This document shows, piece after piece, positions 37,563 to 64,000 of a stretch of DNA of 64,000 bases. Position numbers and translations under genes: made by a program. The stretch comes from Emticicia sp. CRIBPO (lineage in GTDB: Bacteria > Bacteroidota > Bacteroidia > Cytophagales > Spirosomataceae): positions 62,001 through 126,000 of the forward strand of contig NZ_JAAAKV010000014.1 of the NCBI RefSeq assembly GCF_009905725.1. The letters are read 5' to 3'. The notes beneath the pieces were generated by a model. The model searched no databases, had not been told where the DNA came from, and saw only the letters and a list, made by a program, of their open reading frames with translations. How positions within the stretch are numbered: the first letter of the stretch is position 1; every line of letters begins with the position of its first letter.

Positions 37563-40500
37563 ATGAGCAAAAGAATTACATTTAAAATCCTGTTTGCGTT
37601 TTTGCTTTGTGCTGTTTGGGCTGTATCTGGTACAGATGCCTGGGCGGGCAACAAAATAGCTGAACAGAAGGTTACTGGTAGAGTAACCGAAGGTGACAAA
37701 AATGAGGGATTGCCGGGTGTGAGCATCTTGATCAAGGGTACTTCTCAGGGTACTACTACAGATGTGGACGGTAATTACAGCATCACTGTGCAAAACTCTA
37801 ATGCGGTACTTGTATTCAGTATCGTTGGTTACGAGGCTCAGGAAATCACTGTAGGTAACAAAAGCCAGATTAATGTTGCTTTGAAAACCGACGTGAAGTC
37901 TCTGGGCGAGGTAGTTGTGGTTGGTTATGGTGTTCAGAAAAAAGAAACCATTACAGGTTCGGTTGTATCTGTGAAAGGTACAGATCTTGTTAAATCACCG
38001 GCTGTGAACTTAAGTAACTCCCTGGCAGGTAGACTTCCGGGTGTTGTAGCGGTAAACAGAAGTGGTGAGCCGGGTTTTGATGGTTCATCAATCAGAATCA
38101 GGGGTGCCAACTCTTTAGGTAATAATGATGCCTTGATCGTAATTGACGGTATACCTGACAGAGCGGGTGGACTTCAGCGTCTGAACCCTGCTGATATTGA
38201 GAGTATCTCGGTATTGAAAGATGCTTCTGCGGCTATCTACGGTTCACGTGCTGCCAACGGTGTAATCCTTATCACTACCAAGAAAGGTAAAACAGGTAAG
38301 CCTGAACTTTCTTACTCTTTCAACCAGGGTTATGCTCAGCCGACTGTTGTGCCTAAATTGGCTGATGCGGCTCAGTATGTAGAAATGTTGAACGACCTTG
38401 ATATTTATCAGTTGCCGACTGCTCAGTGGAAAGCTGCCAATGATGCCTACAAAGCAACAGGTATTTACACAGGTCCTAACGGTCAGCAAAGAAAAGCCCC
38501 TTATTCTCCTGCAGAAATTCAGAAATACAAGGATGGATCTGATCCATGGTTGTACCCGAATACTGACTGGTATGATGCTACTTTGAAAAACTGGTCTCCT
38601 CAGGTACGTCACAATGTACAGATCAACGGTGGTACTGATGCTATCAGATATCTTGCTTCTTTGGGATACCAGGATCAGGATGGTTACTACAAAAATTCGG
38701 CTACAGGTTATCAGCAATATGACCTTAGATTGAACCTTGATGCTAAAATCAATAAATATGTGAATGTAAATATTGGTTTGGTAGGTAGAGAAGAAGCTCG
38801 TCGTTACCCAACAAGAGGTGCAGGTGCGATCTTCCGTATGCAAATGCGTGGAAAACCAAACCAACCGGCTTTCTGGCCAAACGGTTTGCCTGGTCCTGAT
38901 ATCGAAAACGGTGAAAACCCTGTGGTAATCACTACGAACCAGACAGGTTATGACCGTCAGAAAACAGATTTCGTTCAGACCAACGGTCAGCTTGATATCA
39001 AAATACCAGGTGTGGAAGGTTTGAAGTTCACAGGAACAGCTGCTATTGATAAAAGAATGTATAACAGGAAATTATGGCAGACTCCTTGGACTCTTTATGA
39101 AAAAGGTGTTGGATTTGAAGCAGATGGAACTACGCCTAAGCTGACCGCCAGTAAGCGTGGACCGGCTGAGCCTAACCTTAACCTTTACAATGAAACACAG
39201 TTGAACATCCTTTTGGGTGGTGTGCTTTCATATGAGAAGAAGTTTGGTGTTCACGGTTTGACAGCTCTTGCAGGTACTAACAAAGAGACGATTTCAGGTG
39301 ATAACTTCAACGCTTATCGTCGTTACTTCATATCTCCTGCTATTGACCAGATGTTTGCCGGTGGTGACGCTGAGAAAAACAATGGTGGCGGAGCTTATGA
39401 AATTGCCCGTATCAACTACTTTGGTCGTGTGGCTTATAACTACAAAGAAAAATATCTTGCTGAATTCCTTTGGAGATATGACGGTTCGGATATCTTCCCT
39501 GCGGCTAAGAGATATGGTTTCTTCCCTGGTGTGATGTTGGGATGGTTAATGTCTGAAGAGAAATTCATGAAAGAGATTCCGGTAATCAATTACCTGAAGC
39601 TTCGTGGATCATGGGGACAATTGGGTAGTGACCAGGTATATCTTCCGGGAACTAGTACTGTGGCCAGATATCAGTATTTGTCTACTTACGGTTTCAGATC
39701 TTATATCATCAACAATACAGAGACCAAAACTTTGTATGAAACCCGTATCCCTAACAATAATATTACCTGGGAGATTGCCAATAACTCTAACTTAGGTTTG
39801 GAAGGTCAGTTGCTGAATGGTAAGATATCGTTCGAATTTGATGTGTTCTCTAACATCCGTTCAAACATCCTTTACTTCAGAAATGCATCGGTTCCGCAAT
39901 CTACAGGTTTGACGCTTCCGGCTGAAAACATCGGTAAAGTTGGTAACAAAGGTTGGGAATTCAACATCGGATACCGTAACCAGGCAGGAGATTTCAAATA
40001 CAGCTTCGGTATAAACGGTGGATACTCGAAAAACAGAATCATTTTCTGGGATGAGGCACCTGGTGCTCCTGAGTGGCAAAGAACTACAGGTAAACCAATG
40101 AACACTTACCAGGCTTATCTGTATGACGGTGTGTTTAAAGATCAGGCTGAGATTGATGCCAACCCTATCAACTACTCTGCTATCGTAGGTACACTACGTC
40201 CTGGTGATATGAAATATGTGGATTATAACAAAGATGGTAAAATTACTCCTGACGACCAGGTAAGAACAGACAATACTACATTGCCTTTGTTCCAGGGTGG
40301 TGCCAACATCTCTGCTTCATACAAAAACTTTGATCTTTCTGTCCTTTTCCAGGGAGCAGCAGGTGCTAAAGTTTATGTAAGTGCAGGTGAATCAGGTAAC
40401 ATCGGTAACTTCCTTCTTGATATCTACAAAAACAGATGGACAATCGATAACCCGAGCAGCGAGCATCCGAGAATTGCTAACCGTAGTGACCAGTATTTCT

Positions 40501-40748
40501 CAAATGGTAACACTTACTGGTTAAGAAGTTCTGATTATATCCGTTTGAAAAACGTTGAGATTGGCTACAATGTACCTTCTACTATCATCAAAAAAGTAGG
40601 TCTGAATGGTTTCAGAGTATATGCCAACGGTCTTAACCTTTTAACATGGGATAAATTGAAAGTGTATGATCCTGAATCGGATAACACAACTGGTCAGTAT
40701 TATCCTCAGTCTAGAGTAATCAACTTCGGATTAACTGCAACATTTTAA
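37563..40748 (+). CDS. SusC/RagA-family TonB-dependent outer-membrane transporter
   Basis: A 1061-residue outer-membrane importer. After the signal peptide (ending DAWAG, about residue 29) come a CarboxypepD_reg-like domain (VTGRVTEGDKNEGLPGVSI, about 37-115), a plug domain containing the SusC signature SVLKDASAAIYGSRAANGVI, and a large beta-barrel ending GLTATF with a terminal Phe. It imports oligomeric nutrients with its SusD lid. Codon use is strongly biased, suggesting high expression. It is followed by susD after 19 nt, then a terminator. The LacI-type regulator and operators sit upstream. The substrate is unknown. Confidence 0.97.
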   Translation: MSKRITFKILFAFLLCAVWAVSGTDAWAGNKIAEQKVTGRVTEGDKNEGLPGVSILIKGTSQGTTTDVDGNYSITVQNSNAVLVFSIVGYEAQEITVGNKSQINVALKTDVKSLGEVVVVGYGVQKKETITGSVVSVKGTDLVKSPAVNLSNSLAGRLPGVVAVNRSGEPGFDGSSIRIRGANSLGNNDALIVIDGIPDRAGGLQRLNPADIESISVLKDASAAIYGSRAANGVILITTKKGKTGKPELSYSFNQGYAQPTVVPKLADAAQYVEMLNDLDIYQLPTAQWKAANDAYKATGIYTGPNGQQRKAPYSPAEIQKYKDGSDPWLYPNTDWYDATLKNWSPQVRHNVQINGGTDAIRYLASLGYQDQDGYYKNSATGYQQYDLRLNLDAKINKYVNVNIGLVGREEARRYPTRGAGAIFRMQMRGKPNQPAFWPNGLPGPDIENGENPVVITTNQTGYDRQKTDFVQTNGQLDIKIPGVEGLKFTGTAAIDKRMYNRKLWQTPWTLYEKGVGFEADGTTPKLTASKRGPAEPNLNLYNETQLNILLGGVLSYEKKFGVHGLTALAGTNKETISGDNFNAYRRYFISPAIDQMFAGGDAEKNNGGGAYEIARINYFGRVAYNYKEKYLAEFLWRYDGSDIFPAAKRYGFFPGVMLGWLMSEEKFMKEIPVINYLKLRGSWGQLGSDQVYLPGTSTVARYQYLSTYGFRSYIINNTETKTLYETRIPNNNITWEIANNSNLGLEGQLLNGKISFEFDVFSNIRSNILYFRNASVPQSTGLTLPAENIGKVGNKGWEFNIGYRNQAGDFKYSFGINGGYSKNRIIFWDEAPGAPEWQRTTGKPMNTYQAYLYDGVFKDQAEIDANPINYSAIVGTLRPGDMKYVDYNKDGKITPDDQVRTDNTTLPLFQGGANISASYKNFDLSVLFQGAAGAKVYVSAGESGNIGNFLLDIYKNRWTIDNPSSEHPRIANRSDQYFSNGNTYWLRSSDYIRLKNVEIGYNVPSTIIKKVGLNGFRVYANGLNLLTWDKLKVYDPESDNTTGQYYPQSRVINFGLTATF

Positions 40749-40767
40749 AAATTCAAATTGAAGAACA

Positions 40768-42624
40768 ATGAATAAATTTAGAAATATTTTACTTTCGGCC
40801 GTTGCAGCTTCATTTGTTGTCACGGGTTGTAATGACGACTTTGTTGATACCAAACCTTTGGATCAGGTTTCTGAATCTGCGGTATGGACTGATGCAGCCC
40901 TCGCTGAAGCTTTTGTAACAGAAATCTATGCCGGTTTAGGTATGGGAGGATTTAACGAGCAGATGTTGGCGTCATTGACCGATGAAACTGCCTTCACTCA
41001 CCCTGGTCGTGATATTACCACGATCACTGAGTCAAGATCAAATCCGGCGTCTCCGGGTTGGATCAACGGAACGCTTTCATGGGTAAACATGTATCAGCGT
41101 ATCAGAGCCGCTAACATCGCGATCAAAAACCTTTCTGCCCCGCAGTTTGTGAATACAAACGGTACTGTGGAAAGACTGATGGGTGAGGCTAAGCTGATGA
41201 GAGCTTACTATTATCATCAATTGGTGCGTTACTTTGGTGGTGTGCCTATTATTGATCGTCCTTACGATCTTGGTGAAGCAGATTATCTTGCTCCGAGAAA
41301 TACAATGGAACAATGTATCACTTTCATCGTGAAGGATTGTGATGATGCAGCTACTTTGCTTAACGGCAAAACGCTCGCTTCAGGCCGCGGTTCTAAAGCT
41401 GCTGCCCTGGCTCTTAAGGCCAGAGTACTTCTTTATGCTGCCAGTGATATGTACGATGCTACTACAGCTAAAGCGAAATCAACTGAAATGGCTGCTTTCT
41501 CTAAGCCTGAACTTTTAACTTATGTATCCGGAAGCAGGGCTGAAAGATGGCAGAAAGCTAAAGACGCGGCTAAAGCTGTTCTTGATCTGCCTGGTTATGG
41601 TTATGAATTAGGTCTTTCTGCTCCGGTATCGGCTGCTCAGGGATCTACCAACTATAACAACCTTGCGATGTCAAGAAATGGTGGTGAAAAGGATTTGATC
41701 CTTGCCCGTTATTTCATCAATGCAAAACAGGAAGATGGTGGTCGTCAGGGTTTGTTTAACGGACCGAACGGATACCACAACTGGGCTGGGAATACCCCGA
41801 TCCAGAACTTTGTAGATGACTATGAAATGATGGATGGTACCAAGTTTGACTGGAGTAAGCCGGCTCATGCCAGCAGTCCTTATACCAACAGAGACCCTCG
41901 TTTCTATGCTTCTGTTCTCTACGATGGTGCTCCCTGGAAGCCACGTACTGCTGACGTAGCGGCTAAAGATCCTGCTAACCAGATCCAGACAGGTCAGTAT
42001 GAACTGACTTCCGGTTCAGGAAAAGTAAACTACTTCGGTTTGGATACCCGTAAGAGTACTGTAGAAGACTGGAACGGTAGCTACACCGGATATTATATGC
42101 GTAAATTTATCGATCCAAATCCTGGAATCGTTGATCAGAATACATGGCAGCAAGTGCCTTGGCCTACTCTGAGATACACTGAAGCGATCCTTAACTATGT
42201 TGAAGCTTGTATTGAGTTAGGTCAGGATGCTGAAGCACGTACATGGTTGAACAAAATCCGTTTCCGTTCGGGTATGCCTGCCATCACAGAATCAGGCGAT
42301 GCTTTACGTCAGAGATACAGAAACGAAAGAAGAATTGAGCTTGCCTTTGAAGAGCATCGTTATCATGATGCCCGCAGATGGATGATCGCTAAAACGACTT
42401 TGGGTCGTAAGGCTAACATCATCAGCATCGTGGGTACTCTTAAACCTGGTAAAACAGTAACACTTTACAAATATGATACGGATTCTTATGACTACAACTA
42501 CAAAGTAGTGGACATGGATCCGGGTAAAGAAAACCGTACCTGGTTGGATAAGCAGTATTACCTGCCGATTCACAGAGACGAAATGAACCGTAACAAGAAT
42601 TTAGTTCAAAATCCTGGTTACTAA
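40768..42624 (+). CDS. SusD/RagB-family nutrient-binding lipoprotein
   Basis: A 618-residue outer-membrane lipoprotein. The lipobox gives Cys21, followed by NDDF, an acidic surface-export signal seen in Bacteroidota lipoproteins. The SusD TPR-like helices show the motif RLMGEAKLMRAYYYHQLVRY followed by FGGVPIID, and the C-terminal part has YRNERRIELAFEEHRYHDAR, typical for RagB. It forms the lid of the SusC transporter. It is the second gene of the susCD operon and is followed at once by a strong terminator. Confidence 0.97.
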   Translation: MNKFRNILLSAVAASFVVTGCNDDFVDTKPLDQVSESAVWTDAALAEAFVTEIYAGLGMGGFNEQMLASLTDETAFTHPGRDITTITESRSNPASPGWINGTLSWVNMYQRIRAANIAIKNLSAPQFVNTNGTVERLMGEAKLMRAYYYHQLVRYFGGVPIIDRPYDLGEADYLAPRNTMEQCITFIVKDCDDAATLLNGKTLASGRGSKAAALALKARVLLYAASDMYDATTAKAKSTEMAAFSKPELLTYVSGSRAERWQKAKDAAKAVLDLPGYGYELGLSAPVSAAQGSTNYNNLAMSRNGGEKDLILARYFINAKQEDGGRQGLFNGPNGYHNWAGNTPIQNFVDDYEMMDGTKFDWSKPAHASSPYTNRDPRFYASVLYDGAPWKPRTADVAAKDPANQIQTGQYELTSGSGKVNYFGLDTRKSTVEDWNGSYTGYYMRKFIDPNPGIVDQNTWQQVPWPTLRYTEAILNYVEACIELGQDAEARTWLNKIRFRSGMPAITESGDALRQRYRNERRIELAFEEHRYHDARRWMIAKTTLGRKANIISIVGTLKPGKTVTLYKYDTDSYDYNYKVVDMDPGKENRTWLDKQYYLPIHRDEMNRNKNLVQNPGY

Positions 42625-42641
42625 TGAATTGAGTTTTTAAT

Positions 42642-42688
42642 ATTGGGTAGATGAGTAGGTGTTATCACTCGTCTACCCAATTTTTTTT
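42642..42688 (+). terminator. Strong intrinsic terminator after susD
   Basis: A 15-bp stem (42642-42656 with 42667-42681, one G-U pair) has a 10-nt loop and runs into eight T residues. It lies 17 nt past the susD stop and before the FG-GAP lipoprotein gene. Partial read-through would set lower expression for the downstream genes. It also rules out a start of the next gene at 42651, which would be inside the stem. Confidence 0.92.
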
Positions 42689-42707
42689 GACCCCATTACC
42701 ATTACTT

Positions 42708-45700
42708 ATGAAATTACCTTTATACCTGTTTTCAGGATTGTTTGTTTTCTTAATACTCACTATGTCAGGTTGTAAAACGGCTGACAAAGGGACTGAAAGT
42801 TCAGATGCTTCAGATGAACCTGCTGTGTTTACACTTTTGGGAGCAGATAAAACCAAGATTGATTTTCAGAACATCATCAATGAGGGCCTCAATACCAACG
42901 TTCTGATGTATGAGTATTTCTACAATGGGGGTGGAGTGGCAGTAGGGGACGTCAACAATGACGGCCTGGAGGATATATATTTTACAAGTAACATGCAATC
43001 AAACCGCCTGTATCTCAATAAGGGCAATATGACTTTTGAGGATGTTACCGCAGCAGCAGGAGTTAGCGGGAGAGAAGGCCCCTGGAAAACAGGTGTGACC
43101 ATGGCCGATGTCAACGGCGACGGCTTACTGGATATTTATGTTTGTTATTCAGGTAACCTGAGCCCTGAAAAAAGGAAGAATCAACTTTTTATAAACAAAG
43201 GAAACGGTCAGGCAGGGGTACCCGTTTTTGAAGAGAAAGCAGAAGCTTACGGACTCGACAGCCCTGCTACCAGCACACAAGCCTCGTTTTTTGACTATGA
43301 TAAAGACGGTGACCTGGATATGTTCTTACTGAATCATAATCCTAAATCACTGCCTGTACTTGATGAAGCTACTACCGCAGAAATGTTAAAGACTGAAGAC
43401 CCGTCCAATGGCATGAGGTTTTACAGACATGATAAAAATACTAACGGAGAACCTGTTTTTAAAGACATCACCCGCCAGGCCGGATTTCAAAGCTCAGCTT
43501 TATCTTACGGACTGGGCATTGGTGTAGCTGATCTCAACGGAGACGGCTGGCAGGATCTTTATGTTTCGAATGATTACACCATTCCGGATTTCTTGTATCT
43601 CAACGACAAAAAAGGCGGGTTCATTAACCAGATCACTAAAAGCGTAGGGCACACCTCTCACTTTTCTATGGGGAGTGATGTTTCCGATATTAATAATGAT
43701 GGTTTTTCTGATGTGTTTACCCTGGACATGCTTCCGGAAGACAATCGCCGTCAGAAACTGCTGATGTCGCCGGACAACTATGAAAAATTTGATTTTAACC
43801 TCAAAGTAGGTTTTGGCCACCAGTATATGAGGAATATGCTCCAGATTAACCAGGGCGTTGATAAAGACGATGCTTCCAATACCCAGCTGAGATTTTCGGA
43901 AGTAGGGCAGCTGGCAGGAATCTCCAATACAGACTGGAGCTGGAGTGCTTTATTTGCTGACTATGACAACGATGGATGGAAGGATCTTTTTGTAACCAAC
44001 GGTTACCTGAGAGATTACACCAACCTGGATTTTCTTAAATACATGAGCGATTTTATGGCGAATAACCAGGCCAATATCCAGCGTCAGAATGTGCTGGACC
44101 TGGTTTTGAAAATCCCGTCATCCAACCTGACTAATTATGTATTCAAAAATAACGGTAATCTGACCTTTAAAAATGTAACCACTAACTGGGGGATCAGCCA
44201 GCCGGCCAACAGCAATGGTGCGGCCTATGCCGACCTTGACAATGACGGGGATCTTGACATGGTGGTTAACAATATCAATCTTCCGGCTTTCATTTATCAG
44301 AATGATACCGAAAAGCAATCAAAGAACACTTATCTGAAGGTTAAATTAAGTGGCGAAAAACAGAATAAGCTGGGTATCGGTGCAAAAGTGACTTTATATA
44401 GCGGAGGTAAGTTACAATACCTCGAGCAGATGCCGACACGCGGATACCAATCAAGCGTTTCCCCGGTTTTACATTTTGGATTGGGTAAAGTCATCACTAT
44501 AGACTCTCTGAAGGTAGTCTGGCTGAGTGGTAAATCCGAGACGATCAAAGGCATCAAGGCCAATCAGCAGCTTACCTTTGAAGAAAAAAATGCTAAAGAA
44601 ACGGCAGTTAAGCCTGGGGCAGTTAAGCCTTTTTATGCCAAAATAGCCTCACCGCTGGCCTATCAGCAAACTAAAAATACACTGAATGATTTCAAAAGGC
44701 AACCATTGCTGGTTAATCCTATTTCGTTTTCGGGGCCGTGTATGGTCAAGGGGGACGTGAATGGAGATGGCCTGGAAGATGTTTTTGTAGGTGGTGGTTT
44801 CGGACAGACCGGGGCTGTTTACCTGCAAAGTAAAAGCGGTTCATTCAGCCTGAAAGCCCAGCCTTCGTTTGAAGCTGATAAAGAAAGTGTGGACACCGAT
44901 GCCTTGTTTTTTGACGCCAATCATGACGGATTTACTGATTTGTATGTAGCGAGCGGGGGATATCATAATTTCACGCCTGACGACGCCAGACTTCAGGACA
45001 GACTTTATCTGAACGACGGAAAAGGTACTTTTACCAAAAGCCCGAAAGCATTGCCGGCCATGCTGGTGAGTAAAAGTTGCGTCAGAGCAACAGACATCAA
45101 CGGCGACGGTCATCAGGATTTATTTGTGGGGGGCAGGGTGATTCCGGGAAGGTATCCGGAAAGCCCTCAAAGCTATATCCTGATTAACAACGGCAAAGGC
45201 GAGTTTAAGGACGAAACAGCCAGAATTGCCCCGCAGCTTAAGAATGCGGGTATGATCACTGACGCGGCCTGGCATGATCTGAACAATGATAAAAAGACTG
45301 AATTGATCCTGGTCGGTGAGTGGATGCCGGTGACGGTACTTACCCTGAATGCCGGTAAGCTGAGTGATGTAACCAAAGATTACTTCGACAAAAGTTATAA
45401 AGGTTTATATAACAAATTGCTGCTGGAAGACCTGAACGGCGACGGCAAAGCAGATCTTGTGTTGGGTAATCTCGGATTGAATGCCCAGATAAAAGCCAGC
45501 GAGAAGGAGCCAGCTGAAATGATTTTTAAGGATTTTGATGACAACGGGGCCATTGACCCTATCCTGACTTTCTATATCCAGGGTAAAAGTTATCCTTACG
45601 TAACCCGTGATGAAATGCTGGATCAGATGAGTATCATGCGGACCCGTTTCCCTGACTACAAGTCTTATGCAGATGCGACAATCAACGACATTTTTACGAA

Positions 45701-46094
45701 AGAAGAGCTGGACGGTTCTACAAGGCTTGAAGCAAACTTTATGAAAACGGCCTTGTTTATTTCCGGTACAAACGGGAAATTTGCAGAAGTAAACCTTCCG
45801 GCAGAGGCACAGTTCTCGCCTGTTTTTACAATCACTTCCCTGGATTATAACAAGGACGGTAAAAAAGACCTTTTACTTTGCGGCAATATCGACCGTGCCA
45901 GGCTTAAGTTCGGAAAATACGACGCCAATTTCGGGTTGTTGCTGAAAGGTGACGGCAAGGGAACGTTTACCGCCATTCCGAAACTGGAGAGTGGTTTCAG
46001 CATAGAAGGAGATGTCAGAAGCGTTATTCCGCTGGGTGATTTATTGTTGTTGGGTATAAATCAGAAACCGTTGCAGGCTTATAAGCTGCAGTAA
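42708..46094 (+). CDS. FG-GAP/VCBS repeat lipoprotein with UnbV (ASPIC) domain
   Basis: A 1128-residue exported lipoprotein (lipobox around Cys22, LTMSGCKT). At least 14 FG-GAP-type calcium-binding loops are seen, such as DVNNDGLEDIYF, DVNGDGLLDIYV, DYDKDGDLDMFL, DLNGDGWQDLYV and DYNKDGKKDLLL, in two sets that flank an UnbV/ASPIC domain (GIGAKVTLYSGGKLQYLEQM, about 560-625). Such proteins form beta-propellers on the cell surface. They often accompany SusC/D pairs and vanadium haloperoxidase-like genes in Bacteroidota; their role is not established. The gene follows the susD terminator and precedes the haloperoxidase gene by 18 nt. Confidence 0.9.
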   Translation: MKLPLYLFSGLFVFLILTMSGCKTADKGTESSDASDEPAVFTLLGADKTKIDFQNIINEGLNTNVLMYEYFYNGGGVAVGDVNNDGLEDIYFTSNMQSNRLYLNKGNMTFEDVTAAAGVSGREGPWKTGVTMADVNGDGLLDIYVCYSGNLSPEKRKNQLFINKGNGQAGVPVFEEKAEAYGLDSPATSTQASFFDYDKDGDLDMFLLNHNPKSLPVLDEATTAEMLKTEDPSNGMRFYRHDKNTNGEPVFKDITRQAGFQSSALSYGLGIGVADLNGDGWQDLYVSNDYTIPDFLYLNDKKGGFINQITKSVGHTSHFSMGSDVSDINNDGFSDVFTLDMLPEDNRRQKLLMSPDNYEKFDFNLKVGFGHQYMRNMLQINQGVDKDDASNTQLRFSEVGQLAGISNTDWSWSALFADYDNDGWKDLFVTNGYLRDYTNLDFLKYMSDFMANNQANIQRQNVLDLVLKIPSSNLTNYVFKNNGNLTFKNVTTNWGISQPANSNGAAYADLDNDGDLDMVVNNINLPAFIYQNDTEKQSKNTYLKVKLSGEKQNKLGIGAKVTLYSGGKLQYLEQMPTRGYQSSVSPVLHFGLGKVITIDSLKVVWLSGKSETIKGIKANQQLTFEEKNAKETAVKPGAVKPFYAKIASPLAYQQTKNTLNDFKRQPLLVNPISFSGPCMVKGDVNGDGLEDVFVGGGFGQTGAVYLQSKSGSFSLKAQPSFEADKESVDTDALFFDANHDGFTDLYVASGGYHNFTPDDARLQDRLYLNDGKGTFTKSPKALPAMLVSKSCVRATDINGDGHQDLFVGGRVIPGRYPESPQSYILINNGKGEFKDETARIAPQLKNAGMITDAAWHDLNNDKKTELILVGEWMPVTVLTLNAGKLSDVTKDYFDKSYKGLYNKLLLEDLNGDGKADLVLGNLGLNAQIKASEKEPAEMIFKDFDDNGAIDPILTFYIQGKSYPYVTRDEMLDQMSIMRTRFPDYKSYADATINDIFTKEELDGSTRLEANFMKTALFISGTNGKFAEVNLPAEAQFSPVFTITSLDYNKDGKKDLLLCGNIDRARLKFGKYDANFGLLLKGDGKGTFTAIPKLESGFSIEGDVRSVIPLGDLLLLGINQKPLQAYKLQ

Positions 46095-46112
46095 TCAAAT
46101 TGGTAAATTGAA

Positions 46113-47456
46113 ATGAGGTCATTATTCTTATATATTTTATTGGGTGTGGCTGGCTTCGGTTGTCAGAAAAGCCAGGAAAAGATGCCCGAACTGGGTAGCC
46201 ACGAAATCAGCAAGGTGGTTTCCCAGATGACAGATGTTATGCTGCATGATGTGTCGAATCCTCCTTTGGCTACCCGTTTTTTCTCCTATGCCAGTCTGGC
46301 AGGTTATGAGGTGATCGTACAGAACGATCCCAGATTTTCCTCATTCAAAGGGAAAGTAAATGCTTATCCGGACATCACGAAACCTAAAGTTGAGGGGCCG
46401 TATTCTTACCAGATGAGTGCTGTACTGGCCATGATCGAAACGGCCAAGAAAATGCAGCCTTCAGGTAAGTTACTGGACGGTTATGAAAAAAAATGGCTGG
46501 ATTCGTGTCAGAAAGCCGGGTTTTCAGAAGAAGTTATCAGGAATTCTCTGGAGTATGCCGTTCAGATCAGCAAGCAGATCCTGCCTTACGGAAAAGGGGA
46601 TAAATACAATAAGATCAGTAATTTTCCGCGTTATACACCCAAAATGAAGGAAGGGTACTGGTATCCGACACCTCCGGGGTATTTTGCGGCGGTTGAGCCG
46701 TATTTCTTTACTGTACGATCGTTTAACCTCGATTCATCATCACAGTTTAAACCGGTTCCGCCTGTACCGTTCTCGAATCAGAAGGGCTCAGCTTTTTATA
46801 AGCTGGTAGAAGAAGTTTATCATCAGAAATTGCCACAGGAACACCGCGAAATCGCGGCTTTCTGGGATTGCAATCCTTTTGCCCTGCAGGACAACGGCCA
46901 CCTGATGGTCGGTATGAAGAAGATTTCTCCGGGTGCCCACTGGATGGGTATTGCGGGCATTGCCTGTGACCAGGCCAAATTCAGTCTGGAGCAATCCATG
47001 CAGGTTTATGCCACTCTGTCTATGAGCCTGATGGATGCTTTTATCATTTGCTGGGATGAAAAATACCGCAGCGACAGGGTCAGACCCGAAACGGCTATCA
47101 GAAAATTCATTGACCCGAAATGGCGTCCTATGCTTCAGACACCCCCTTTCCCGGAATACCTGAGTGGACATTCGACCATTTCATCGACTGCTTCCGTTAT
47201 TCTGACTCATTTTTTTGGTGAAAATTTTAAATATACAGATATTGTGGAGGTTCGTTTCGGATTGAAAGCACGCAGCTTTTCATCATTCAGACATGCAGCT
47301 GAAGAGGCGGCGATATCAAGACTTTACGGAGGGATACATTTTACAGATGCGATAGATAACGGGATGAAACAAGGGTTTATTTTGGGAGACCATATTGTCG
47401 GCCGCTTGTTTAAAGATAACAGTAAGAACACGGTGGCCATGAAGACACCGAATTAA
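46113..47456 (+). CDS. Vanadium-dependent haloperoxidase/PAP2-type lipoprotein
   Basis: A 447-residue protein with a lipobox-like leader (GVAGFGCQ, Cys17). The vanadate/phosphate-binding motifs are intact: KYRSDRVRP (Lys317, Arg324), LSGHST (353 His) and SRLYGGIHFTD (Arg403, His409, Asp412), in PAP2/vanadium haloperoxidase order. Members oxidise halides or act as acid phosphatases; the two cannot be told apart from these residues alone. It lies after the FG-GAP lipoprotein and before galK, and so belongs to the Sus-like locus. Confidence 0.9.
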   Translation: MRSLFLYILLGVAGFGCQKSQEKMPELGSHEISKVVSQMTDVMLHDVSNPPLATRFFSYASLAGYEVIVQNDPRFSSFKGKVNAYPDITKPKVEGPYSYQMSAVLAMIETAKKMQPSGKLLDGYEKKWLDSCQKAGFSEEVIRNSLEYAVQISKQILPYGKGDKYNKISNFPRYTPKMKEGYWYPTPPGYFAAVEPYFFTVRSFNLDSSSQFKPVPPVPFSNQKGSAFYKLVEEVYHQKLPQEHREIAAFWDCNPFALQDNGHLMVGMKKISPGAHWMGIAGIACDQAKFSLEQSMQVYATLSMSLMDAFIICWDEKYRSDRVRPETAIRKFIDPKWRPMLQTPPFPEYLSGHSTISSTASVILTHFFGENFKYTDIVEVRFGLKARSFSSFRHAAEEAAISRLYGGIHFTDAIDNGMKQGFILGDHIVGRLFKDNSKNTVAMKTPN

Positions 47457-58046: not shown

Positions 58047-59573
58047 ATGAGTAAAATCAGAATTCCCGCAGTTTTGTCTTTCTGTTGTGTTAGCAGCCTC
58101 TTGCTTTCTTGTCGATCAAATGATCTTATTCCCAAATCAGAATATCCGGAATTCTCCATTGTCGAGGGGAACACCGTCAAGACCCGGGTGGACGAATACA
58201 ACAAAAAAGTAGAGGATGTGGACATCCTGAGTCCCAAATACCTTATTATCGGTGATACGGTAGTGACTTACCGGCAATCGAAGCCACATACTCCCCCTTC
58301 GGTAACTCCAGACTTATCAAATATCAAAAACAATGACAACCCCGAATTGAAAGGAAAGCCACTCAGGTACATTGCAGTAGGCGGAAGTCTGACTGCAGGA
58401 GTACGGGATGGAGGGTATTTTAATGAAGGTATTCAGACTTCTTATCCAAACCTTGTGGCCAGGCAGATGGGTTTACAGAAATTCGAGCAACCTTTGTTTG
58501 ATGCAGCAGACTATAACGGATTTGGAAGAAAAGTGCCAACTTCTGTAAATTATACAGGTGGTCCGGTCCCTAAGTTTAAGGAGGTGAAGAATAATAGTGG
58601 GGTATTACAAATTGAAAAAGATAATGTTACACTGAAAAAATACCTCGGTAAGCCGGATAATCTTGCAGTAAAAAATTTCCATTCAGGTAATCGGTCTCTT
58701 CTTGATTACCAATTCAGTGACGGGAATTTAGCTTTTGATGGGTCGTTATCAGGACAAGTTCTATCAAGAATTTACGGAGGAGATTTAAAATCAATTTCAA
58801 GAAAAGTTTTTGATGGCAATTTTGACCTTATCTCTTTTGAAACTGGTTGGCAGGAAATAATTACGTGGTTTGTATTTAAAATTACGTCTGCACCTGGTAC
58901 CCAAATATATCCTGAAGGAATCAATAATCTCAATTATGACAATGCTTCTAATCTTGGGGATGTGATTAGAAATCATGGGAAAATGACTTTTATGAAAGAT
59001 TTACATTCAAGTGGTAAAGCAAAATATGGCTATTTCTTGAATTTACCTTTGATTACGGATTTACCCTATTTTAATATTATTAGTAAAGATGAAGTCAACA
59101 AGGTCATTGAGACAGTCAACAAAAACATGGTTTTCAAAGAAAATGTCAAAATATTACCTACATCAGAAATTGATTCTTTGTTAGGAACCAAGGTTCACAT
59201 CTCGATGAAAAAAGGGCTTTCATATGATAAACCATTAAGTAAATATAGCTATCTGACAGACGAAGAACAAAAGTTAATAACTGTTAGCGTTGAAGGTTTT
59301 AATAAAGAAACTGAAAGTCTTTCAAAGTCTTTTAATTTTCCTGTAATAGACATCAATAGCCTTTACAAGCAGATAATCAAAGGTACTTATATCACGGATG
59401 ATGGAGTTAAAGTAGATGGCTCATACCCTAAAGGCAATTTCTTTTCTTCGGATGCCATTTATCCCACAGCGTTTGGGCAGGCAGTGATTGCCAATGAGGT
59501 GATCAAGACGCTGAACAATTTTTATAAAATGCAGATTCCTTTGATTAGCACTAGGGAGTACCTCGATAATTGA
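58047..59573 (+). CDS. SGNH-hydrolase-like lipoprotein 1, catalytic motifs altered
   Basis: A 508-residue lipoprotein (lipobox SLLLSC, Cys22). The SGNH scaffold begins near residue 105. Block I reads VGGSLTAG instead of GDSLTAG (Ser114 kept, Asp lost) and is followed by VRDGGYFNEGIQTSYPNL, as in Bacteroidota GDSL hydrolases. Block III (ISFETGWQE) lacks the GxND Asn. Block V reads SDAIYPTAFGQAVIANE, where Tyr472 replaces the catalytic His of DxxHP. It also has a region (about 190-330) not shared with its two paralogues. A binding role rather than hydrolysis is inferred. Paralogue 2 follows after 24 nt. Confidence 0.78.
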   Translation: MSKIRIPAVLSFCCVSSLLLSCRSNDLIPKSEYPEFSIVEGNTVKTRVDEYNKKVEDVDILSPKYLIIGDTVVTYRQSKPHTPPSVTPDLSNIKNNDNPELKGKPLRYIAVGGSLTAGVRDGGYFNEGIQTSYPNLVARQMGLQKFEQPLFDAADYNGFGRKVPTSVNYTGGPVPKFKEVKNNSGVLQIEKDNVTLKKYLGKPDNLAVKNFHSGNRSLLDYQFSDGNLAFDGSLSGQVLSRIYGGDLKSISRKVFDGNFDLISFETGWQEIITWFVFKITSAPGTQIYPEGINNLNYDNASNLGDVIRNHGKMTFMKDLHSSGKAKYGYFLNLPLITDLPYFNIISKDEVNKVIETVNKNMVFKENVKILPTSEIDSLLGTKVHISMKKGLSYDKPLSKYSYLTDEEQKLITVSVEGFNKETESLSKSFNFPVIDINSLYKQIIKGTYITDDGVKVDGSYPKGNFFSSDAIYPTAFGQAVIANEVIKTLNNFYKMQIPLISTREYLDN

Positions 59574-59597
59574 TAAATCTTAAACAACAAATTGAAA

Positions 59598-60989
59598 ATG
59601 AAACACGCAAAAAACATCCCATCATTGTTTCTGGCTGCTTTGGCGGTAAGCTGTGGGCCAAAAGACCCGGCTCCGATTGCTGAAATTAATACAGAGTATT
59701 CTGTTTTTAATGGGGATACCATTTTTACAAGGATTGACTATATGTATCTGAAAAGTAGTTCCATTGCTGTAGGCGATACTGTGAAGATGTACGGAGATAT
59801 TAAATTGCATGACAGGCCTTTGGTAAATCCGGATTTAAGTACAATGAAAAATAATTCAGATCCGGAATTGACGGAGAAATCTTTAAAGTACCTGGCTATC
59901 GGAAGTGGTATCTCTGCCGGTTACCGGGATGGTGGCTATTTTAATGAGGGCATCATGACTTCGTTTCCCAACCTGATTGCCAGACAATTGGGGATTGAAA
60001 AGTTTGAACAACCCTTATTTGATAAATCAGATTATAACGGTTTTGGCCGCAATCTTCCGACAGAACGAAATCCCGGGGGAGGGCCGGCCCCAAAGTTCAA
60101 AAGGGTGAGCAATAATACCGGATTTAAAGGTATTGTCAATGGGAGGTTGATTCCGAGAGAAATAACCAAAAACATGAAGGAAATTGACAACTGGGCCAGG
60201 CCAGGTGCCACAATGAACGCTTTGAATTATGGAGTCAATTACTCGGGAGATCCTTTTTTCGCACGCATGAAGTTAGGGCTTGTGCCAATGTTGTATACTT
60301 ACCACGCACAAAAGTCGGACCTGTTTACCATCGAGTTCTGTGATGATGTTTTCATGGGGGCTGCTAATACCTCTTCAAACTTTTTCAACGCAGGAGGACC
60401 TAACGGAGAACATGGGTTATATACATTGTTAAAACTGTTCGCCGCTGAAGGGCGTAAAGGCTGCATTGCGAATATCCCGGATCCGTCAGACTTTCCATAC
60501 TTTAAGTTCATTACCATGAAACAGTTAAAATCTGGTCTGGGGAAAAATTATATGGAAGGAATTTCTGAAAATATTTCAAAAGGGGGATTCCTGGTAAGGC
60601 CAAGCAAAGGAATGGACTCATTGGCCAGCACGAAGATTCCTTTTGGCATCAAAGTCAAACCAAACAATCCCTTCAATGATTTAAACCGTACCCGAATGAG
60701 TGTGGAAGACAATAATGTAAACATAACCGCTTTTGCAAAAGAAAATGGATACCCGGTTGTTGATTTGAAGTTATTATATGACAGGATCATACAGGGTAAA
60801 TATTTTACTGTCGACGGAGTTAGGGTAGATCCGTCTTATCCAAACGGGAACTTCTTCTCTAATGACGGCATTTATCCTACAGCGTTCGGTCAGGCAGTTA
60901 TAGCCAACGAGTTCATTAAGACCCTGAATAACTTTTATAAAGTAAACATCCCGCTGATTAAAACCAAAGCTTATTTGGATGTCAGATAA
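59598..60989 (+). CDS. SGNH-hydrolase-like lipoprotein 2, Ser and His both lost
   Basis: A 463-residue lipoprotein (LAVSC, Cys19). Block I reads IGSGISAGYRDGGYFNEG: Gly104 stands where the nucleophile Ser would be. Block III is FTIEFCDDVF, with no Asn, and block V is NDGIYPTAFGQAVIANE with Tyr426 for His. With Ser and His both absent, hydrolase activity is very unlikely. It is closest to paralogue 3. A TTG two codons upstream of the ATG is an alternative start, but the ATG gives a clean lipobox leader. A 241-nt gap follows. Confidence 0.78.
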   Translation: MKHAKNIPSLFLAALAVSCGPKDPAPIAEINTEYSVFNGDTIFTRIDYMYLKSSSIAVGDTVKMYGDIKLHDRPLVNPDLSTMKNNSDPELTEKSLKYLAIGSGISAGYRDGGYFNEGIMTSFPNLIARQLGIEKFEQPLFDKSDYNGFGRNLPTERNPGGGPAPKFKRVSNNTGFKGIVNGRLIPREITKNMKEIDNWARPGATMNALNYGVNYSGDPFFARMKLGLVPMLYTYHAQKSDLFTIEFCDDVFMGAANTSSNFFNAGGPNGEHGLYTLLKLFAAEGRKGCIANIPDPSDFPYFKFITMKQLKSGLGKNYMEGISENISKGGFLVRPSKGMDSLASTKIPFGIKVKPNNPFNDLNRTRMSVEDNNVNITAFAKENGYPVVDLKLLYDRIIQGKYFTVDGVRVDPSYPNGNFFSNDGIYPTAFGQAVIANEFIKTLNNFYKVNIPLIKTKAYLDVR

Positions 60990-61230
60990 CTTGCAAATAA
61001 TTTAATCAAAATGAAAGTAGGAAAGAGTCATCCTTGTTAACATATGAAGTTCGAAATTGTTTAAAATAAAATGTCATTAATATATTGTGTTGATATATAA
61101 TATATTATGATTTTAAATTATAAAGTAAAGATAAAAATAATCTAAAATTCCTATAAATATTTATACGTTATTAGTTTTTGTGCATACCTTTACACGAAGT
61201 TTTACATACCAACTTTAATACGCAACCAAA
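60990..61230. other. A/T-rich gap between SGNH-like genes 2 and 3
   Basis: The 241 nt are rich in A and T and have no reading frame. The right end may hold a promoter for gene 3: TACCTTTA at 61185-61192 is one mismatch from the -7 consensus. I see no other element. Confidence 0.35.
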
Positions 61231-62652
61231 ATGAAAAATAAATATAAAATGACTACACTCTTTTTAGCTACCGCACTGGCTTTGAGTTGCGGAACAAAGG
61301 ATATTATTCCTGTTGTAGATCTTAATACAGAATATTCCATCGTAGATGGAGATACTGTTAAAACCAGGATTGAAAAAGATTTCAACAAAGTAAAAAACTA
61401 CAAATATCTTAAAAGCAATTCTATTGTTTTGGGGGATACGTTGGTAATGTACAAAGAGATTAAACTTCATGACCGTCCTTTAAAAAAGCCAGATCTCAGT
61501 AAATTGAAGAACGACTTAATTCCGGAATTGAACGGGAAATCGTTAAGGTACGTCGCCATAGGTGGTAGTATATCTGCGGGATACAGGGATGGGGGATATT
61601 TTAATGAAGGGATCATGACTTCATTTCCTAACTTGGTTGCCCGGCAAATGGGCATCGAAAAATTTGAACAGCCACTTTTTGAGCCATCCGATTACAACGG
61701 TTTTGGAAGAATTGTAAGGACTGAGTTTAATCCAAGCGGTGGACCTGCTCCAAAATTTAAGAGGTCAACTAATAACCTGGGAATTCTTGGAGTATCAGGA
61801 GATAAATTGATCCCAAAAAAAATAAAGAAAAGCCGGTTTGAAATTGATAACTGGGCATCACCAAACATTAGTCTTCATGGCTTTAATTTTCCTATGACGG
61901 AAATAGGCTCCTATCATGATCGCATGGACTTTGAAGTTGACATGATTATGCTTGATGAGTATACTAAACAAAAAATGGACATCTTCACTATGGAATTTTG
62001 TGATAATGTTTTTTACAACGCATCTGTTTCCGGCATCTCACCATTCGATAATGGAAGACCGGGTGGAACAGAACCTCCTTTGTTGACTTTATTGAAAATA
62101 TATGAAAAAGAAGGACGTAAAGGATGCATTGCCAATATACCGGATCCGGGAGGGTTTCCATATTTTAACTTTATTACAAAATCTCAATTAAAAAAAGGAT
62201 TAGGTGGGCTATATCTTGATTGGATTTCAGATAGAATTAATGAAGAAGAATATCGGGTATTGCCAAGTGCAAGAATGGATTCAATTGCAAGTCCAAAGGT
62301 CCACATGAGTATGAAAAAAGCACCAAATTACGCTCTGACAAGTTTGACAAATTTAACCTATTATACTGATCAATATAATTCTAACATAGTTTCTTTTGCC
62401 AAAGCTACGAGGTACCCGGTGGTAGATTTGAAGTCTCTTTATGCTAAGATACTTGGTGGTAAATACATTACCGAAGATGGTGTGAGAATAGACCCTTCTT
62501 ACCCTAATGGAAATTTCTTTTCGGTCGACGGCATTTATCCAACTGCTTTGGGTCAGGCGGTGATCGCCAATGAGTTTATTAAAACATTAAATGCGTACTA
62601 CCAACTTGAAGTCCCTTTAGTCCCAACCAAGGCCTATCTCAACCAAAAGTAA
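61231..62652 (+). CDS. SGNH-hydrolase-like lipoprotein 3, catalytic motifs altered
   Basis: A 473-residue lipoprotein (LALSC, Cys20). Block I reads IGGSISAGYRDGGYFNEG (Ser113 kept, GDS changed to GGS). Block III is FTMEFCDNVF and block V is VDGIYPTALGQAVIANE with Tyr436 for His. It shares with paralogue 2 the stretches SFPNL-ARQ-GIEKFEQPLF and GRKGCIANIPDP. It ends with the same tail (PL-PTKAYL) as the other two. Activity is unlikely; a polysaccharide- or ester-binding role is inferred. The SASA-type esterase gene follows after 22 nt. Confidence 0.78.
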   Translation: MKNKYKMTTLFLATALALSCGTKDIIPVVDLNTEYSIVDGDTVKTRIEKDFNKVKNYKYLKSNSIVLGDTLVMYKEIKLHDRPLKKPDLSKLKNDLIPELNGKSLRYVAIGGSISAGYRDGGYFNEGIMTSFPNLVARQMGIEKFEQPLFEPSDYNGFGRIVRTEFNPSGGPAPKFKRSTNNLGILGVSGDKLIPKKIKKSRFEIDNWASPNISLHGFNFPMTEIGSYHDRMDFEVDMIMLDEYTKQKMDIFTMEFCDNVFYNASVSGISPFDNGRPGGTEPPLLTLLKIYEKEGRKGCIANIPDPGGFPYFNFITKSQLKKGLGGLYLDWISDRINEEEYRVLPSARMDSIASPKVHMSMKKAPNYALTSLTNLTYYTDQYNSNIVSFAKATRYPVVDLKSLYAKILGGKYITEDGVRIDPSYPNGNFFSVDGIYPTALGQAVIANEFIKTLNAYYQLEVPLVPTKAYLNQK

Positions 62653-62674: not shown

Positions 62675-64000
62675 ATGAAAAAATATACAAACCTTTTGAC
62701 AAGGGTGGCCTTGCTTTGTACGATCTTTATGGTCAATTCTTTCGGGCAGGCAGTCAATATTACTTATCCAGTTAATGGAAGTGTAATTCAACGACAAAGT
62801 GATAACAGAGCAAATGTGAGCTTTTGCGGCACAATTGGATACGGACTAGACAGTACATCTCTTTACAATTATAAATTGGTATTAATCGGCCTTGATTTAA
62901 ACACGGGCGAACCTAATAATATAAATAATGCATATTGGAATATTGACCTTGTCAAGATTACAGGAGTTAACTATGGTGTTTTTAGGTTGTATATTAATAT
63001 ACCGTCCGGTTGGTACTCTGCCCATATTGCTATTTCTGACAAGAATGGCACGGCAATTGGAAATTATACACAGAGAAATTTTAAAATTGGTGTTGGCGAT
63101 ACCTTTGTTATTGCAGGTCAGTCGAACGCCCGCGGATTTCCCTATGTATGGGATAAAGGCCTTATTGGGTATGACAATACATTAAATGATTCTCAATTAC
63201 CAGATGCTGTGAGAGTGATTGGAATTGGAGAAAAAGATATGATAAAGTCTTCAGATGCTCTTACTGAACAGGAAACTATGAAGCCAGGAGGAGGAATTTC
63301 CTTTTTGCGTGGCTTTGAAAAGTTAACTCTAAAAAAAGAACTAAATACTGTAAATCTTTCTTACCCAGACGAATTTGGAAATCAGAAGCCAATATACAGC
63401 CGCCCTATTTTTCCTGTAGGTACCGATTCGTGGTGTTGGGCCCCCTTAGGCAAAAAATACGTTGCCGCTCAGAATGTACCCGTTCAATTTTTTAATGTAG
63501 CCATTGATGGCTCTTCTATTACCAACTGGCAAGCAGGTACTCCTAACTATAATCGTCTCTTGAATTTATTGAAGAGACAAGCAAACATTGTAGGCCACAG
63601 GGGAATACTCTGGCATCAGGGAGAAGCGGATGCGAGTCAAAGCATGAGCGAATCTACTTATCAAAGTTATCTGAAAAGTATGGTAGATAATATTCAGTCA
63701 GCTTTTGATCCAAGTGGCTCTACCTGGGGGCCATTAACCTGGAATATTTCGAAGGTTTCTTATCATACAAAATATAATCCTCCCAATTTTGACGTTTTTG
63801 ACAACAGCACTGTTAACCCTAATTTTGGAATTAGAAATGCCCAGTCTAATGTTTCTTTTGCTTCTTCTATTAAAAAAACAGGAATTGATACGGATGGTAT
63901 ACTACCTCCAGGAAGAGGTCCTTTTCAAAAGATACATTTTCATGGAGCGACGCACAATACTGTAGGCGAAATGTGGAAAAACGCCGGACTATGGAATAAC
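62675..64000 (+). CDS. SGNH-type carbohydrate acetyl-esterase (SASA family), partial
   Basis: The first 442 residues of an exported protein; the gene runs off the window. A signal peptide (ending NSFGQA, about residue 24) is followed by a beta-domain (about 25-145), then the esterase: VIAGQSNARGFP (nucleophile Ser), ILWHQGEADA and FQKIHFHGATHNTVGEMW (likely catalytic His). This pattern is typical of sialate O-acetylesterase (SASA/DUF303) relatives. Unlike the three genes before it, its catalytic motifs look complete. It starts 22 nt after paralogue 3 and is probably co-transcribed. A type IX sorting tail, if present, would be outside the window. Confidence 0.8.
   Translation, partial: MKKYTNLLTRVALLCTIFMVNSFGQAVNITYPVNGSVIQRQSDNRANVSFCGTIGYGLDSTSLYNYKLVLIGLDLNTGEPNNINNAYWNIDLVKITGVNYGVFRLYINIPSGWYSAHIAISDKNGTAIGNYTQRNFKIGVGDTFVIAGQSNARGFPYVWDKGLIGYDNTLNDSQLPDAVRVIGIGEKDMIKSSDALTEQETMKPGGGISFLRGFEKLTLKKELNTVNLSYPDEFGNQKPIYSRPIFPVGTDSWCWAPLGKKYVAAQNVPVQFFNVAIDGSSITNWQAGTPNYNRLLNLLKRQANIVGHRGILWHQGEADASQSMSESTYQSYLKSMVDNIQSAFDPSGSTWGPLTWNISKVSYHTKYNPPNFDVFDNSTVNPNFGIRNAQSNVSFASSIKKTGIDTDGILPPGRGPFQKIHFHGATHNTVGEMWKNAGLWNN

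Follow-up and report, generated by a model that had tools for sequence, protein, structure and literature searches.

The window analyzed here is the whole 64,000-nt stretch of Emticicia sp. CRIBPO DNA, and its last part holds three tandem genes for predicted lipoproteins, followed by the start of a putative esterase gene. The genes and the codons discussed below are as follows.

58047..59573, + strand: P0001, predicted lipoprotein of 508 aa, SGNH-like, with Ser114 kept, Ala207 (block II), Gln269 (block III), Asp469, and Tyr472
59460..59462, + strand: codon of Tyr472 of P0001 (block V His column)
59598..60989, + strand: P0002, predicted lipoprotein of 463 aa, SGNH-like, with Gly104 in the Ser column, Ala200 (block II), Asp250 (block III), Asp423, and Tyr426
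60873..60875, + strand: codon of Tyr426 of P0002 (block V His column)
61231..62652, + strand: P0003, predicted lipoprotein of 473 aa, SGNH-like, with Ser113 kept, Ala209 (block II), Cys257 in place of the block III Gly, Asn259, Asp433, and Tyr436
62536..62538, + strand: codon of Tyr436 of P0003 (block V His column)
62675..64000, + strand: P0004, start of a SASA-domain (PF03629) esterase gene, 441 aa in the window, beginning 22 bases past P0003

P0001, P0002, and P0003 are consecutive + strand open reading frames in the window's ORF list, and each has a lipobox Cys recognized by eye after a hydrophobic stretch (LLSC, AVSC, and ALSC, respectively); a simple lipobox pattern scan flags P0001 and P0003, while the lipobox of P0002 is a by-eye reading. 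An earlier note, made from the sequence of this DNA, described three consecutive lipoprotein paralogues of 508, 463, and 473 residues that keep a common scaffold, and both points are borne out: the RDGGYFNEG, SFPNL (or SYPNL), and GQAVIANE motifs are found in all three proteins. Its central observation, that Tyr replaces the catalytic His of block V, is also correct, since all three proteins carry Tyr (472, 426, and 436) in that alignment column, and the block V Asp is kept three residues ahead of it (469, 423, and 433). The block II Gly is changed to Ala in P0001, P0002, and P0003. The further claim that all three lack the block III Asn applies to P0001 (Gln269) and P0002 (Asp250) but not to P0003, which retains Asn259. 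The nucleophile column contains Ser in P0001 and P0003 and Gly104 in P0002, where a Ser lies one residue earlier. Because P0003 keeps its Asn and P0002 has lost its Ser, the losses differ among the three lipoproteins. Two new acidic residues, Glu255 and Asp259, were considered as a putative metal site, an idea that was dropped, as an acidic residue ahead of block III is also found in ordinary SGNH enzymes. The region contains 26 promoter-like sites, compared to 17.4 (sd 4.2) in shuffled sequences, and five terminator-like sites, compared to 4.3 in shuffles.

With an alignment of 54 rows as input, the AlphaFold2 model of P0003 reaches a pLDDT of 81.7 and a pTM of 0.86. Its best Foldseek matches in the PDB are SGNH esterases and acylhydrolases (4rsh, 7ddy, Axe2, and others), with a best E value of 1.5e-3, none at or below 0.001, and TM-scores by target of 0.51-0.70 among the first 16 matches. 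The predicted structure of P0003 supports an SGNH fold for the lipoproteins, in agreement with the scaffold proposed in the earlier note. The curated cutoff of PF00657 (Lipase_GDSL, 23.6 bits) is not reached by P0001 (18.1 bits) or P0003 (18.5 bits), and P0002 shows no match to it; at an E value of 0.01, PF00657 matches 31 of the 54 members of one family alignment (A2). NCBIfam gives no match for P0001-P0004, PHROGs gives none for P0001 and P0003, and a phmmer search of P0001 against PDB sequences finds none. With the family profile, the SGNH matches in the PDB are weak and mixed with unrelated chains.

Homologues were sought in 119 relatives, in sets of 222, 295, and 296 genomes from the same family, class, and phylum, respectively, and in one scan of named genomes. 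After 10 short fragments were left out, 167 proteins were aligned; loci from the 296-genome phylum search lie outside this alignment. The tree was built from 165 rows (L126 and L033 left out) with the Ser, Asn, and His columns masked, using LG+G4, a short search, and SH-aLRT support. The window's three genes fall in a clade of 104 members with a support of 100, whose genera include Lacihabitans, Emticicia, Leadbetterella, Dyadobacter, Runella, Arcicella, and Flectobacillus. Genomes sharing the window's family code (f1) contribute 58 of the clade rows and named records 46, of which 43 belong to the NCBI families Spirosomataceae, Leadbetterellaceae, Flectobacillaceae, or Cytophagaceae. The His column of the clade contains Tyr in 76 members, His in 16, Phe in four, Ser in three, Asn in three, and Thr in two, and the Ser column contains Gly in 55, Ser in 39, Ala in seven, and other residues in three. 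The block V Asp is kept in all 104 members and the block III Asn in three, and Ser is also lost in 60 of the 76 Tyr forms. A second set, gathered by genome profile search (112 distinct full-length proteins from 72 genomes, with profile matches in 100 of 222 genomes), has Tyr in 69 of its 96 clade members, which come from 57 genomes. In both counts, Tyr occurs in the clade at more than chance frequency.

The wider family includes 41 members that keep Ser, Asn, Asp, and His, which we call canonical by this definition, and Tyr occupies the His column in five rows outside the clade. On the tree, the His/Tyr/other column changes at least 20 times, the Ser column 14 times, and the Asn column 10 times, indicating that the losses are repeated. 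The joint loss of Ser and His on independent branches goes in the expected direction and is not significant (8 pairs, median p 0.25). Six family members are present in the source genome (G000): P0001-P0003, a Tyr form on contig C39, a His form on C34 (DGIHPT), and a Thr form on C38 (DGLTPT). The suggestion that the Tyr form makes up a conserved clade is therefore upheld as to the spread of Tyr, but His persists in 16 members and the column is labile. Another block V residue, Phe429, is invariant across the 104 clade rows of the alignment and absent from all 41 canonical rows; it was set aside as a clade-exclusive mark, as F at the simple string position in the genome-sampled set is found in 95 of 96 clade rows but also in 6 of 16 non-clade rows.

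We compared the selection acting on these genes with that on their intact homologues. By the Nei-Gojobori method, dN/dS is about 0.03-0.11 in close Gly/Tyr pairs (from the 25 closest of 114 clade pairs) and about 0.04-0.11 in all 14 canonical pairs; these pairs are non-independent and some have saturated dS, and the divergence among P0001-P0003 is too great for a dN/dS estimate. In the 61 members without Ser and His, the columns of block V have a mean identity of 0.84, compared to 0.70 for block I, 0.51 for block III, and 0.50 elsewhere, whereas canonical members show 0.74, 0.73, 0.79, and 0.47, respectively. Because the patterns of the named-genome scan lie in block V, one of them including Phe429, the identities were recounted on genome-sampled rows, which gives 0.83, 0.68, 0.48, and 0.47 for blocks V, I, III, and elsewhere in 55 members without Ser and His, and 0.74, 0.77, 0.82, and 0.51 in 30 canonical members. 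Judged by these column identities, the presumed sides of the pocket (blocks I and V) are retained and the oxyanion block is released in Ser/His-less members. The low dN/dS of close pairs, together with the conservation of blocks I and V without Ser and His, indicates that the clade is not decaying. No column supplies a substitute His in half of the non-His members, the most His-rich one reaching 38 of 88, so that no other conserved His takes the active-site place. The earlier view of the Tyr change as functional rather than decay gains from the purifying selection on close relatives and the wide occurrence of Tyr, but loses from the lability of the column, in which Tyr is not universal.

The clade and the canonical members differ in their gene neighborhoods. 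A SASA gene lies directly downstream of 61 of 103 clade members and of none of 39 canonical members, and the gap to it is less than 100 bases in 60 of the 61 cases; within two genes, a SASA gene is found in 73 of 102 clade members. A FadL-type gene (cluster c1, one member of which was identified as PF03349) lies directly upstream of 25 of 39 canonical members and of none of 98 clade members; two family members could not be placed in this analysis. The pairing with SASA is not obligatory, as 20 clade members (15 Tyr forms) lack a SASA gene up to three genes away on a complete stretch, with 10 more stretches being incomplete. Nor did it arise with the loss of catalysis, because a SASA gene also lies within three genes of 11 of the 13 clade members in which Ser and His are both intact. 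In a reverse search from the SASA side (222 genomes), the best 49 matches all lie beside a family member, as do 52 of the best 70; its profile was made from 12 partners and favors their like, and at most five candidates were scored per genome. The distances of the lipoproteins and of their SASA partners are correlated (r = 0.91 over 56 pairs), which is reached by none of 2000 permutations, and shared species ancestry explains part of this co-divergence. For 36 of 56 pairs, the lipoprotein and its SASA partner point to one and the same nearest pair in another genome, and this also holds for 17 of the 24 pairs that come from multi-pair genomes.

The SASA neighbor in the window, P0004, runs past the window, with 921 aa to the contig end and an NPCBM domain further on. 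It matches PF03629 with an E value of 1.6e-17 and keeps Ser150 (QSN), WHQGE, and His421, and on these sequence features (SASA domain, QSN Ser, WHQGE, and block V His) we assign it as a predicted CE20/SASA-type esterase. The QSN Ser, WHQGE, and the block V His are kept in all 62 partners of at least 430 aa, the eight shorter ones among the 70 cluster-0 partners having been left out of this check. The block V Asp is kept in 49 of the 62 and absent in 13, including P0004, which has Gln418 where most partners have Asp; dyads without the block V Asp are described as active in related enzymes in the accessible parts of two papers (PMC10779480, PMC12313940). At an E value of 0.01, a T9SS sorting-tail match is found in 7 of the 12 partners scanned. 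Among five long partners, including P0004, the Pfam cutoff is reached by NPCBM in all five, a T9SS tail in three, BACON in two, and a ricin-type domain in one. The partner model (pLDDT 74.6) has the sialic acid esterase SIAE and XAC1771 as its closest structures, with E values of about 2e-13 and TM-scores of 0.37-0.47.

We propose, with a probability of about one half, that the three proteins are pseudoenzymes that bind an acetylated glycan and assist the neighboring SASA esterase. They would be lipoproteins with a probable outer-membrane location, in which the SGNH scaffold and a conserved pocket (blocks I and V) persist but the hydrolytic machinery has been given up, namely the block II Gly, mostly the block III Asn, and the His, to which P0002 and numerous relatives add the Ser. 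The ligand of the former active-site cleft would most likely be an O-acetylated polysaccharide, which the lipoproteins would retain at the cell surface for the SASA (CE20/SIAE-like) deacetylase of the adjacent gene. This proposal builds on the residue losses, the clade, the purifying selection on close Gly/Tyr relatives, the exchange of FadL for SASA as neighbor, and the retained Ser and His in the partner. The SGNH lipase SrL lost its activity when any one of Ser, Asn, or His was replaced by Ala, according to the part of the report available (PMC10779480), so by analogy P0002 almost surely lacks activity, and P0001 and P0003 very likely lack it too. A precedent for carbohydrate binding is CtCE2, which, in the accessible text of PMC2661963, binds cellulose across its SGNH active site, and whose S612A mutant has an about 8-fold higher affinity. 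Since an SGNH cleft can thus bind carbohydrate, the lipoproteins may do the same with an acetylated glycan for the neighboring deacetylase; the H791A mutant of CtCE2 binds about 20-fold more weakly (PMC2661963), and because CtCE2 depends on its His to bind strongly, it is an imperfect parallel. The neighborhood narrows the putative ligand towards acetylated carbohydrate, and to judge from the FadL genes beside canonical members, the ancestral role may have been related to lipids. Counting against the proposal are the Ser kept in P0001 and P0003, the Asn kept in P0003, and the block V Asp missing from P0004 and the other 12 partners. The broader idea of a family of non-catalytic surface lipoproteins, put forward in the earlier note, fits the loss of His without a substitute, the predicted SGNH fold, and the selection, but does not extend to the clade members that keep His or to the intact members of the wider family.

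The frequent pairing and co-divergence of lipoprotein and partner could also reflect a non-catalytic anchor or chaperone, which would hold the SASA esterase at the outer membrane or help export it through a protein-protein surface, the old pocket having no substrate. The T9SS sorting tails of the partners and the lipobox pattern in 57 of 76 Tyr forms are in line with this idea, but the pocket sides are conserved above the rest of the protein, as measured by column identity with surfaces unmapped, and 9 of 16 His forms, many of them paired, go unflagged by the simple lipobox scan, a method that overlooks some cases (e.g., L017). We regard it as a possible but doubtful alternative. A distinct arrangement is a dedicated enzyme-pseudoenzyme pair whose lipoprotein works in trans: as a subunit docked on the SASA deacetylase, it would contribute to the substrate cleft of that enzyme, a task that in CE20 falls to the ancillary domain in cis. 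The dead and live SGNH members would then make up one surface deacetylation complex, and the lineage would have switched from a FadL importer to a carbohydrate deacetylase, with catalysis lost afterwards; this we hold to be unlikely.

Rebuilt chemistry, in which Ser, Tyr, and Asp or another nucleophile would give a weak or unusual esterase or acyltransferase, is consistent with the Ser of P0001 and P0003, the invariant block V Asp (104/104), and the purifying selection in relatives. It is at odds with the additional loss of Ser from most Tyr forms (60/76), the lost conservation of block III, and the inactivity of each SrL Ala mutant (PMC10779480, in the part available), and seems to us rather improbable. 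That the genes are decaying or functionless is very improbable: dN/dS is at most 0.11 in 23 of the 25 closest clade pairs, the pocket blocks are conserved, and several genomes have more than one lipoprotein-SASA pair. Some copies do look degraded, as a same-genus genome (G007) has the gene only as two open pieces, split copies occur also in L234 (G199) and L097, L254 is shorter, and two tandem pairs show raised dN/dS of 0.18 and 0.41.

Compared to SGNH/GDSL hydrolases (PF00657, PF13472), including the FadL-linked canonical homologues, the lipoproteins are alike in predicted fold, block I and V surroundings, block V Asp, and length, but all three lack the His and the block II Gly and two of them the Asn; unlike the canonical homologues, they adjoin SASA and have no FadL neighbor. 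With the CtCE2 module of CtCel5C-CE2 they would share an SGNH cleft that serves as a non-catalytic carbohydrate site, which is only proposed here, and they share an aromatic residue inserted in block V, but CtCE2 is still an active esterase with its Ser-His and forms part of a fusion with a cellulase, whereas these are separate lipoproteins (PMC2661963, accessible text). GDSL pseudoenzymes are already known in plants, such as At1g54030, which has the SGNH scaffold and no lipase activity and is retained in the genome; these are plant proteins, some of them without a whole block, and no esterase partner is named in the part of the paper available (PMC4757993). His-to-Tyr pseudoenzymes are likewise known in bacteria, as pseudo-orthocaspases, which belong to an unrelated protease family (PMC6426788, available part). 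The partner contains the SASA domain used to find CE20 esterases, in which an ancillary domain helps to form the cleft; according to the accessible part of PMC12313940, that domain acts in cis and is a beta-sandwich rather than a pseudo-SGNH protein. In the titles and abstracts searched, mainly of the open literature, neither a pseudo-SGNH family in Bacteroidota nor its SASA gene pair is described.

Such proteins are likely annotated as lipases or hydrolases from homology alone. The retention of the clade, often beside a gene for a predicted esterase with intact catalytic residues, suggests a non-cutting helper role. Within one bacterial group, the clade forms a graded series from members that keep Ser and His to members that have lost both, and one genome alone holds His, Thr, and Tyr paralogues. 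Because this series often stands beside an esterase that keeps Ser and His, the steps by which an enzyme might turn into a binding partner are directly testable. Partial loss is also seen in two other lineages: class relatives with a GGNYLAG-type block I, GMEDI, and DGYHPN, and two proteins from Acidobacteriota-type records with GEGLAAG and NGYYPG.

Changes in the catalytic columns of the SGNH-like family are also found outside the 104-member clade that holds the window's three genes. In the tree, seven rows (L140, L142, L145, L150, L153, L154 and L156) form a separate class-level lineage, in which the Ser column is Asn, Asp or Gly and the Asn column is Glu, while His is retained in six of the seven and is Tyr in L142. 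In 6/7 of these rows, a gene belonging to a single cluster lies no more than two genes upstream, and the cluster's member adjoining L142 is ParA/Mrp-like. Two same-family rows outside the clade, L036 and L037, carry GNALTAG together with Tyr, and they apparently lost both Ser and His in a separate event. In records that bear the titles Terriglobia and Candidatus Angelobacter, two further loci have long frames with an SGNH-like part:

L107, 3053-6295, long frame of 1081 aa
L111, 2831-6286, long frame of 1152 aa

The SGNH-like part of both has Gly in place of Ser and a block V of NGYYPG, and a Pfam search of the frames gave no match at E 0.001.

In the window's own genome, the His paralogue (L012, contig C34) and the Thr paralogue (L013, contig C38) show no lipobox in a simple pattern scan, which misses some. 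Both stand in a three-gene set, in the order SGNH-like gene, SASA gene (PF03629-domain esterase) and cluster c3 protein; one c3 member matches leucine-rich repeats. Two other SASA genes of this genome are cut by the ends of contigs C6 and C39 (L010, L011), at these coordinates:

L010, 8746-9440, SASA gene
L011, 10961-11655, SASA gene

They are 90% identical over the last 696 aligned positions, and the assembly probably breaks at a SASA repeat common to both contigs. The genome search of a same-genus genome (G007) found a split gene:

L162, 4827-6012, SGNH-like gene in two open pieces

The adjoining SASA gene is open. Elsewhere in the window, the domain search identified:

37563-47456, SusC/SusD-like pair, then two proteins, one FG-GAP/ASPIC-UnbV and one PAP2-type
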